DNA of 64,000 nucleotides from Rhodocytophaga aerolata. Its GTDB lineage: Bacteria > Bacteroidota > Bacteroidia > Cytophagales > 172606-1. Under the pieces are notes generated by a model. The model saw nothing but the letters and a program-made list of their open reading frames with translations, was not told the origin of the DNA and searched no databases. The translations under genes were made by a program, and so were the position numbers. Below, piece after piece: positions 23,571-24,398 of this stretch. The stretch is from NCBI RefSeq assembly GCF_030503435.1, contig NZ_JAUKPO010000001.1, forward strand, positions 806,001 through 870,000. The letters are read 5' to 3'. Numbering within the stretch: position 1 is the first letter of the stretch; every line of letters begins with the position of its first letter.

Positions 23571-23693
23571 TCTTACACATTTTAGTACCCTTTTTTATTA
23601 ACTCTGCTACATATAATCTTTAAAAACAGTTACCAACATTTACTATGTGCAATATAGCTATATCTGTAGTATACCCATTAATTGTTAAGTTAT

Positions 23694-24005
23694 ATGTTTA
23701 CCTTATTAACTCTTTTGTTTCTTCTACACGGGTCTCCTGCTACCTCTGCTAAACCATTACTCACAGAAAATTGCAAAGGTGAACTGAAAAACAACCTGAA
23801 GGCCGGACACTGGCAATGCTTCTACGACGATGGCAAGCTAATGCAGGAAGGAAACTATACAAACGGCAAAAAAGAAGGCATCTGGAAACTATATCATGCG
23901 AATGGAAAACTAGCCGGTGAAGGCCCCTATGCCAATGATGCCGAGAAAGGAAAATGGAAATTCTTTGACGATGAGGGTAAGTTAATATTAGAGCAGGAGT
24001 ATTAG
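23694..24005 (+). CDS. secreted MORN/YwqK-like repeat protein
   Basis: A 103-residue protein starting at the ATG 23694 (an upstream TTG is less likely), with a signal peptide of about 20 residues (LLTLLFLLHGSPATSA). The rest is three MORN-variant repeats: KNNLKAGHWQCFYDDGKLMQEG, NGKKEGIWKLYHANGKLAGEG and NDAEKGKWKFFDDEGKLILE. Such repeats occur in YwqK-like proteins, where a toxin-antidote role was described in some Bacillus strains, but here no toxin partner is present, so function is unknown. A strong terminator follows it. Confidence 0.8.
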   Translation: MFTLLTLLFLLHGSPATSAKPLLTENCKGELKNNLKAGHWQCFYDDGKLMQEGNYTNGKKEGIWKLYHANGKLAGEGPYANDAEKGKWKFFDDEGKLILEQEY

Positions 24006-24114: not shown

Positions 24115-24146
24115 AAAAAAACGCACCGGTTAACCACTCCGGTGCG
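24115..24146 (-). terminator. intrinsic terminator of the tRNA-like RNA
   Basis: On the minus strand CGCACCGG pairs with CCGGTGCG (24122-24129 and 24139-24146) around a 9-base loop, followed by seven T residues. The stem starts 47 nt after the CCA end of the tRNA-like gene. Confidence 0.85.
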
Positions 24147-24193
24147 CACCTTACTTCATCAACAAACTAAAAACCAAATGAATTAATCTTGTT

Positions 24194-24341
24194 TGGCTGT
24201 AGGAGAAGGCTTCGAACCTCCACGGAGCGGTTAGCCATAGCTCACAATTTAACTTTAGTGGTCAACCCGTTAAGCTACGTTTATCCCGTTATCCCCACCC
24301 CCGAGACAGGAGGGCATGGCTGCCAATTTCATCATCCTACA
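24194..24341 (-). ncRNA. 148-nt tRNA-like RNA with a giant variable region
   Basis: Read on the minus strand, TGTAGGA (24335-24341) and TCCTACA (24198-24204) form a perfect 7-bp acceptor stem followed by discriminator G and an encoded CCA (24194-24196). The D arm (TG, ATG, loop with AAATTGG, CAT) is close to bacterial tRNA-Leu. An anticodon-like arm has stem CCCTC/GGGGG and loop CTGTCTC, giving GUC if read normally. The T arm GGAGG-TTCGAAG-CCTTC is canonical. Between them lie 76 nt where at most about 20 are usual. A full-consensus promoter and a strong terminator frame it. It is not tmRNA in form, because it keeps D and anticodon arms. It may be a divergent tRNA or a non-translational regulator. 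Confidence 0.75.
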
Positions 24342-24366
24342 TTATATCTTCTGCTTTATTGTTATA

Positions 24367-24398
24367 CAAAACTAACACTACTTACGTTATTTTGCAAA
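24367..24398 (-). promoter_or_regulatory. Bacteroidota promoter of the tRNA-like RNA
   Basis: On the minus strand, TTTG (24395-24398) is followed after 20 nt by TAGTTTTG (24367-24374), both full matches to the Bacteroidota -33/-7 consensus at the expected spacing. The -7 box ends 25 nt before the acceptor stem, so a short 5' leader of about 18-20 nt would be removed from the RNA. Confidence 0.7.

Follow-up and report, generated by a model that had tools for sequence, protein, structure and literature searches.

The window, a stretch of 64,000 nt from Rhodocytophaga aerolata (NZ_JAUKPO010000001.1), contains on its minus strand a gene for a tRNA-like RNA which, as read from the sequence, is 146 nt long (24341–24196), or 148 nt with its encoded CCA. 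The RNA gene is preceded by the motif TTTG-N20-TAGTTTTG, which we take to be a promoter of the Bacteroidota type, is followed by a terminator-like hairpin and T run, and lies divergent from a gene for a regulator of the AsnC/Lrp family (Table 1). A small MORN-repeat protein is encoded next to it at 23682–24005 on the plus strand. The original prediction described a stand-alone tRNA-derived RNA with a promoter, a perfect acceptor stem, the usual arms, a 76-nt variable region, a terminator, and an anticodon-like loop with GUC and a pyrimidine at position 37; on re-reading the sequence we find all of these features to be present. In the R. aerolata genome (9.07 Mb) we find one copy of the RNA.

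Table 1. Positions in the window of the tRNA-like RNA, its parts and its divergent neighbour.
Feature	Position	Strand	Details and basis
Promoter TTTG-N20-TAGTTTTG, presumed Bacteroidota type	24367..24398 (TTTG 24398-24395; TAGTTTTG 24374-24367)	minus	read directly
tRNA-like RNA	24196..24341	minus	position 1 = 24341 (T1), C74 = 24196; read directly
Acceptor stem, 5' strand	24335..24341	minus	TGTAGGA, holds U1, G2 and U3; sequence and covariation
D arm	24316..24332	minus	stem ATG/CAT, tRNA-Leu-like, GG in loop; stem covaries among relatives
Anticodon arm	24298..24314	minus	loop CTGTCTC 24309-24303 = G34 U35 C36 U37 C38
Variable arm, 76 nt	24222..24297	minus	stems 1 and 2, the internal loop of the next row, and an outer part whose sequence varies
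Conserved internal loop of variable arm	GATAAA 24285-24280 / CTAA 24234-24231	minus	relatives' alignment
T arm	24205..24221	minus	sequence and relatives
Acceptor 3' strand, G73, C74, encoded C75 and A76	24194..24204	minus	sequence
Encoded CCA	24196-24194	minus	read directly
Intrinsic terminator-like hairpin and T run	24115..24146 (24146-24139 with 24129-24122; T7 24121-24115)	minus	read directly
AsnC/Lrp-family regulator, 156 aa	24484..24954	plus	divergent from the RNA

The anatomy of the element is that of a tRNA, with acceptor, D, anticodon and T arms, GG in the D loop, a T loop of the form TTCGANN and a tRNA-like 3' end. ARAGORN reports 0 tRNA and 0 tmRNA genes in the window, Rfam 15 gives 0 matches there at its gathering thresholds, and a relaxed Rfam search of the stretch with the element yields no tRNA match at E≤5 and two matches at chance level to unrelated families. 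No long-form RNA is called by ARAGORN in the loci of 12 relatives, and three short relatives that ARAGORN names tRNA-Asp are left uncalled by Rfam. As no Rfam 15 model matches in the window and ARAGORN misses the long form in the loci tried, the family is probably unannotated in most carriers. Neither program reports a known tmRNA or RNA family at the element, in agreement with the earlier view that it is neither a normal tRNA-Leu nor a tmRNA, and no tmRNA gene with a tag peptide is found by ARAGORN or Rfam. Folding of the window copy as a single sequence is only slightly better than that of its own shuffles (z −1.31), so that the structural evidence described below is comparative.

A family of tRNA-like RNAs in Bacteroidota and their viruses

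An exact 22-mer from the D arm matches at least 100 stretches of bacterial genome contigs, the titles of which name Dyadobacter, Emticicia, Siphonobacter, Imperialibacter, Neolewinella, Saprospiraceae and other Bacteroidota. Including the window's copy there are at least 118 occurrences of the 22-mer, and 117 of these 118 could be parsed into copies of the RNA (86 of them distinct) that measure 116 to 196 nt inclusive of the two bases after C74. Tandem copies, diverged from one another, occur two to five at a time in several Neolewinella and Lewinella loci; arrays of 2–5 diverged copies, spaced about 200–250 bp apart, are seen at loci L024, L035, L054, L062 and L043. Upstream of the family, TANNTTTG occurs in 94 of 146 distinct 120-nt stretches, as against 8.5% of letter-shuffled stretches.

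From an alignment of 35 relatives, window copy included, we built a covariance model, to which the window copy, as one of the model's own 35 sequences, matches at 140.6 bits. The share of paired cells in this alignment is 97.7%, shuffles giving 86.7% (sd 0.6). Changes on both sides are seen in 16 pairs, compared with 11.6 for shuffles, and occur in the helices of the acceptor, anticodon and T arms and of the variable arm. The 62 matches to the model, which come from 41 genomes and comprise 60 distinct copies, give 96.6% paired cells against 83.6% in shuffles and 20 two-sided pairs against 13.2, with all seven helices covarying, D stem included, in an alignment that was fitted to the model and so favours its structure. 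Of the five measures applied to this larger set, one does not set it apart from shuffles, namely the number of further pair types, as 81 of 500 shuffles also reach the observed 44. The conservation of the RNA is far beyond chance, and conservation and covariation in relatives, which the original prediction had proposed as its check, are thus both found.

At the core of the variable arm lies a conserved internal loop, RAYAAA (where R is a purine) opposite CTAA, with covarying closing pairs on both sides, beyond which the arm is free in length and sequence and extends up to about 125 nt. A helix between GGTTGACC and GGCTAACC, earlier suggested from the window copy, is not general to the family, as short members do not have the GGTTGACC block and CTAA lies opposite RAYAAA in the internal loop. 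Some members lack the long arm, among them a 77-nt form in genome G072 (L177:4838-4914, minus strand; tRNA-Asp(atc) according to ARAGORN) and two viral forms of 87 and 91 nt, and they indicate that the long arm is not always needed. Where present, it may serve to exclude translation factors or to bind a protein. The proposal of an intron-bearing tRNA is not supported, since the extra sequence is a covarying variable arm, is very variable in length and is missing from the short members.

At the 3' end G73 and C74 are constant in all 62 model matches, and the letters after C74 vary, with CCA encoded in only 11 of the 116 copies that are readable past C74. The encoded CCA noted originally is therefore real in the window copy and is not a feature of the family, the invariant part being G73 and C74. 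The ordinary tRNA genes of the R. aerolata genome mostly end likewise, with the discriminator plus C, so that the RNA follows the local tRNA convention and its terminal CA would come from the CCA enzyme.

Scanning 395 Bacteroidota genomes with the model gives long forms in 40 and the short form in one, although only a few candidates were scored per genome under strict filters and some of the non-carriers may be misses. Among the matches listed, those of at least 87 bits are 109–196 nt long and lie in 40 genomes, and the lower ones are 82–88 nt long except for the 77-nt short form of G072 at 65 bits; 20 of the lower matches (about 51–61 bits) were fetched, and all 20 are ordinary tRNA-Leu. All 15 listed genomes of the window's order are carriers, one of them with the short form only, as are 11 of 13 genomes of family f6, 7 of 10 of f5, 5 of 5 of f9 and 3 of 3 of f49, the last lying outside the class; families f7 and f8 have no carrier in the 395-genome scan.

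The RNA is also carried by viruses. In viral contigs (IMG/VR), 60 of the 80 loci scanned (L213–L292), from 108 stretches found, match at more than 81 bits, which amounts to 59 whole copies with 40 distinct sequences and one copy cut by a contig end; examples are L275:10333-10482, L265:5344-5494 and L257:736-855. Some of these copies stand in long tRNA arrays and some with a tmRNA, the copy at L259 has A37, and no AsnC homologue is found in the 59 viral loci searched. Plasmid records gave no match to the RNA.

Constant positions and tRNA identity elements

Within the 62 copies from 41 genomes, U35, C36 and C38 are as constant as G73 and C74, and G34 is found in 58, being replaced by U in G320, by C in G166 and G387 and by A in G072. 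The pairs U1-A72, G2-C71 and U3-A70 are likewise present in 62 of 62, while pairs 4 to 7 covary. Position 37 is T in 51 copies, C in 7 and G in 4, and never A; position 33 is T in 51, A in 7, C in 3 and G in 1. A working tRNA-Asp has A37 and U33, a combination that the family does not keep, and the RNA thus relaxes positions (33 and 37) that matter for decoding.

The identity elements of the bacterial tRNAs concerned are given in the relevant part of PMC9976931: determinants for Asp are G73, G10, G34, U35, C36 and C38, and AspRS also uses G1-C72, whereas amidation of Asp-tRNA-Asn needs U1-A72, and G1-C72 and U20a block amidation in tRNA-Asp. The RNA has G73, G34, U35, C36 and C38 as an AspRS substrate would, but it has U1-A72 throughout (62 of 62) where AspRS uses G1-C72, and G10 is found in only 13 of the 60 distinct copies, most of which, the window copy among them, have A10. 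U1-A72 is at the same time the determinant for GatCAB. Taking the constant positions together with the published determinants, the RNA combines the principal determinants by which tRNA-Asp is charged with the determinant for amidation on tRNA-Asn. Among the tRNAs shown for the R. aerolata genome, U1 is otherwise found only in tRNA-Asn and tRNA-Gln (setting aside an extra leading T that ARAGORN gives to tRNA-Ala), and a separate canonical tRNA-Asp(GUC) has A37. The AspRS of this genome has 586 aa.

Two other identities were considered. A seryl or leucyl identity conferred by the long arm leaves the invariant loop unexplained, and tRNA-Leu identity would need A73. Reading the loop as a Glu anticodon (UUC in G320, CUC in G166 and G387) applies to a minority of copies and is left as a caveat; the part of PMC6523644 concerned with this activity reports that bacterial AspRSs charge tRNA-Glu as well, in vitro.

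The AsnC-type regulator and the distribution of asparagine enzymes

The regulator gene divergent from the RNA encodes a protein that matches NCBIfam model PRK11179 (AsnC) at 160.8 bits, which is under the curated cut-off of 227, and the Lrp model at 39.8, together with matches to the Pfam AsnC_trans_reg and HTH_AsnC-type domains. Linkage was assessed by comparing 1433 mechanical ORFs from 117 loci all against all, without prior choice of a neighbour. The AsnC cluster is the top neighbour cluster, with an ORF in 63 of the 117 loci, and in those 63 loci all 72 RNA copies are on the strand opposite to it. Among the 40 ORF clusters listed it alone spans most lineages, and the others looked like synteny within lineages. 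By tblastn, a divergent AsnC that is 54–84% identical to the window's regulator is found in 29 of the 40 other genomes, 30 of 41 with the window's own, so that a regulator gene beside its presumptive target, as in an AsnC regulon, is seen in 30 of the 41 genomes. The distance from AsnC to the nearest RNA copy is 122–214 bp in these genomes; in the ORF comparison, two shorter distances (1 bp at L084 and 58 bp at L099) probably reflect a mechanical ORF start set too far upstream. The fetched stretches of the remaining 11 of 41 carriers (the five genomes of f9, four genomes of f2, G091 and G072) lack AsnC.

In E. coli asnC is divergent from asnA. A related arrangement is found in the non-carrier G053 (L210, G053:C1:173000-179500), in which an AsnC homologue, 45% identical, is divergent from an AsnB-like gene (491 bits compared with a cut-off of 499) with 122 bp between the match starts; here the gene for an AsnB-like enzyme holds the place of the RNA. 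No AsnC is found in 17 of the 18 regions around asnA or asnB.

Before testing we fixed the prediction that carriers have GatCAB and lack AsnA/AsnB, and that their non-carrier relatives have AsnA/AsnB, and this prediction mostly held. It was tested in 80 of the 395 genomes, namely all 41 carriers plus 39 non-carriers, of which 24 belong to the same class (out of 60 same-class non-carriers), with presence of the amidotransferase judged by its GatB subunit. All 41 carriers have GatB, as against 1 of 24 same-class non-carriers, counts that, like all those that follow, are not phylogenetically independent. The one exception, G041, has no GlnRS over cut-off, so that it would depend on GatCAB for Gln. 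All 41 carriers have an AsnRS over cut-off, and 34 have a GlnRS. Among the 57 tested genomes of the same order or class with both synthetases, every one of the 34 carriers has GatB and none of the 23 non-carriers does; the split repeats inside families f5 (7 versus 3) and f6 (11 versus 2).

E. coli-type AsnB is over cut-off in none of the 41 carriers, as compared with 18 of the 24 same-class non-carriers, and AsnA is found in 4 carriers and 7 same-class non-carriers. Thirty-seven of the 41 carriers have neither enzyme, as do 5 of the 24 same-class non-carriers. The broader model TIGR01536 is over cut-off in 66 of the 80 genomes, many of them carriers, in which these homologues could be real asparagine synthetases; the only carriers with neither TIGR01536 over cut-off nor AsnA are G320, G150, G269, G249 and G190. 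GatB also occurs in 13 of the 15 non-carriers from outside the class, six of which (G013, G022, G030, G147, G167 and G179) have AsnRS and GlnRS as well, with no element detected. Two carriers of family f3, G166 and G387, in which the RNA has C34, possess short AsnRS-like frames in addition to a full AsnRS gene (G166:C2:595933-596853, 346 aa, and G387:C1:2542190-2542744, 195 aa).

A proposed scaffold for asparagine synthesis

Because of the identity elements together with the gene linkage and co-occurrence described above, we propose that the RNA is a dedicated non-decoding tRNA that acts as a scaffold for asparagine synthesis under AsnC control, which we consider to be its probable role. We hold, with somewhat less confidence though still on balance, the fuller form of this proposal, in which the RNA, also carried by viruses, is a cofactor that no longer reads codons, serves only for the production of free asparagine by AspRS and GatCAB, and replaces asparagine synthetase across large parts of Bacteroidota. 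In this model the divergent AsnC-type regulator would control transcription from the RNA's own promoter, and the transcript would then be trimmed like a tRNA and its CCA completed. AspRS would read the loop (G34, U35, C36 and C38) and G73 and charge the RNA with aspartate, and GatCAB would read U1-A72 and amidate the bound Asp to Asn. The lack of A37, the relaxation of position 33 and the unusual variable arm would probably keep the Asn-charged RNA off the ribosome, and such exclusion is to be expected because Asn would otherwise be inserted at Asp codons. Asparagine would then be released by hydrolysis or passed on, and would feed AsnRS, although we know of no enzyme for the release step. The viral copies would raise the supply of asparagine during infection.

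If this proposal is correct, GatCAB gains a client in bacteria in which AsnRS and GlnRS are present and both AsnA and E. coli-type AsnB are absent, a tRNA has been drawn out of translation as a metabolic scaffold, and the identity elements for a synthetase and for an amidotransferase are combined in one molecule with an asparagine-type regulator adjoining. Synthesis of Asn on a tRNA is already known; what would be new is a separate RNA for it, one that should not decode, and among the titles and opening lines of abstracts retrieved from the open-licence literature we found no description of such an RNA.

An alternative explanation is that GatCAB makes Asn-tRNA-Asn by way of a non-discriminating AspRS, as in Bdellovibrio, and that the RNA does something unrelated. 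The part of PMC4206432 that treats such genomes counts AsnRS, GlnRS and GatCAB without an Asn synthetase in 18 of 547 genera, Bacteroidetes included, and suggests synthesis on tRNA-Asn by a non-discriminating AspRS; the six genomes outside the class fit this explanation without the element, and U1 starts 32 of the 37 tRNA-Asn genes read in carriers (40 were tried, G178 being left out). We nevertheless regard it as unlikely, as GatB and the element coincide without exception in the 57 tested same-order or same-class genomes that have both AsnRS and GlnRS, and as it does not account for the combination of U1-A72 with an Asp-type loop. Moreover, U20a is present in 37 of 37 carrier tRNA-Asn genes read and G1 in five (G072, G166, G387, G064 and G158), both of which are named as antideterminants in the relevant part of PMC9976931; U20a makes no contrast between carriers and non-carriers, being also present in 15 of 15 non-carrier tRNA-Asn genes read. 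Two of the genomes with G1, G064 and G158, have AsnRS, GlnRS and GatB and are without AsnA or E. coli-type AsnB, and by the stated rule the tRNA-Asn found in them cannot be a client of GatCAB, whereas the RNA can.

It could also be envisaged that the RNA is charged with Asp and amidated, but that the Asn (or Asp), rather than being freed, is transferred to an acceptor in a lipid, a peptide or the cell wall. The identity elements and the GatB linkage would then be the same, and a non-decoding loop fits any non-ribosomal use. However, the lack of E. coli-type AsnB in carriers and the AsnC linkage point to asparagine supply, and no transferase stood out on collective inspection of the 40 ORF clusters listed, so that we attach a low probability to transfer of this kind.

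A regulatory tRNA mimic, one of the original suggestions, would be an uncharged or charged sensor that controls the activity of AsnC, AspRS or GatCAB. The long structured arm with its conserved internal loop would suit such a sensor, as would its position adjoining the regulator gene in 30 of 41 genomes, but the constant G73-C74 end is like that of ordinary tRNAs, the short forms do without the long arm, and the viral copies, some of them in tRNA arrays, do without AsnC. The co-occurrence with GatB, the lack of E. coli-type AsnB and the linkage to AsnC favour a biosynthetic role instead, and a mimic of this sort seems very improbable.

A divergent tRNA, also suggested originally, is right as to the origin of the RNA and is no explanation of it, given that the canonical tRNA-Asp(GUC) is separate in the genome. 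That it might still be a working tRNA-Asp reading GAC/GAU, as could be supposed from the presence of GUC in 58 of 62 copies and from the three short forms named tRNA-Asp by ARAGORN, is hardly credible, as position 37 is U, C or G in all 62, position 33 varies, a canonical tRNA-Asp with A37 exists in the same genome, and U1-A72 would invite amidation. Finally, a Y RNA-type partner of a Ro60/Rsr (TROVE) protein, brought to mind by the TTGACC in the variable arm, a motif of Y RNAs, and by a TROVE gene in the R. aerolata genome, can virtually be dismissed, as the acceptor ends are the ends of the RNA and TROVE is found in 6 of 41 carriers as against 3 of 19 non-carriers tested.

A separate element of the R. 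aerolata genome, a weak Rfam tRNA match of 142 nt and 33.9 bits (L179:1092-1233 on the minus strand, equivalent to G000:C125:108091-108232), adjoins tRNA-Lys and lies about 1.6 kb from the TROVE (Ro60/Rsr) gene; it is possibly a Y RNA-like tRNA mimic or a broken tRNA.

As a putative scaffold for asparagine synthesis, the RNA can be compared with several known systems. The bacterial Y RNA YrlA and tmRNA both have a tRNA-like fold, and the RNA differs from them in having no co-occurrence with TROVE, no tmRNA call by ARAGORN and no Rfam model match. With the route in which a non-discriminating AspRS and GatCAB act on tRNA-Asn, as described in the pertinent parts of PMC4206432 and PMC9976931, it would share the placing of Asp on an RNA with G73 and U1-A72, the amidation by GatCAB and, again from PMC4206432, the setting of bacteria with AsnRS and GlnRS and without AsnA/AsnB. 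It differs from that route in that the scaffold is a separate RNA with an Asp-type loop (C36 and C38), without A37 and usually with a long arm, which should not decode. G73, G34, U35, C36, C38 and G2-C71 are shared with the canonical tRNA-Asp(GUC), whereas U1-A72 instead of G1-C72, the lack of A37, the minority status of G10, the Leu-like D arm and the long variable arm set the RNA apart from it.

tRNA-Sec is a specialized tRNA whose variable arm is long and which carries a precursor amino acid during its conversion. The RNA is like it in having such an arm and, as proposed here, in amino-acid conversion on a tRNA, but it has a GUC-type loop rather than the UCA anticodon, linkage to GatB and apparently no codon. 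The staphylococcal tRNA-Gly isoacceptors reserved for cell-wall synthesis are likewise set aside from translation, although their use and architecture differ from those of the RNA, for which we propose a role in the synthesis of an amino acid.
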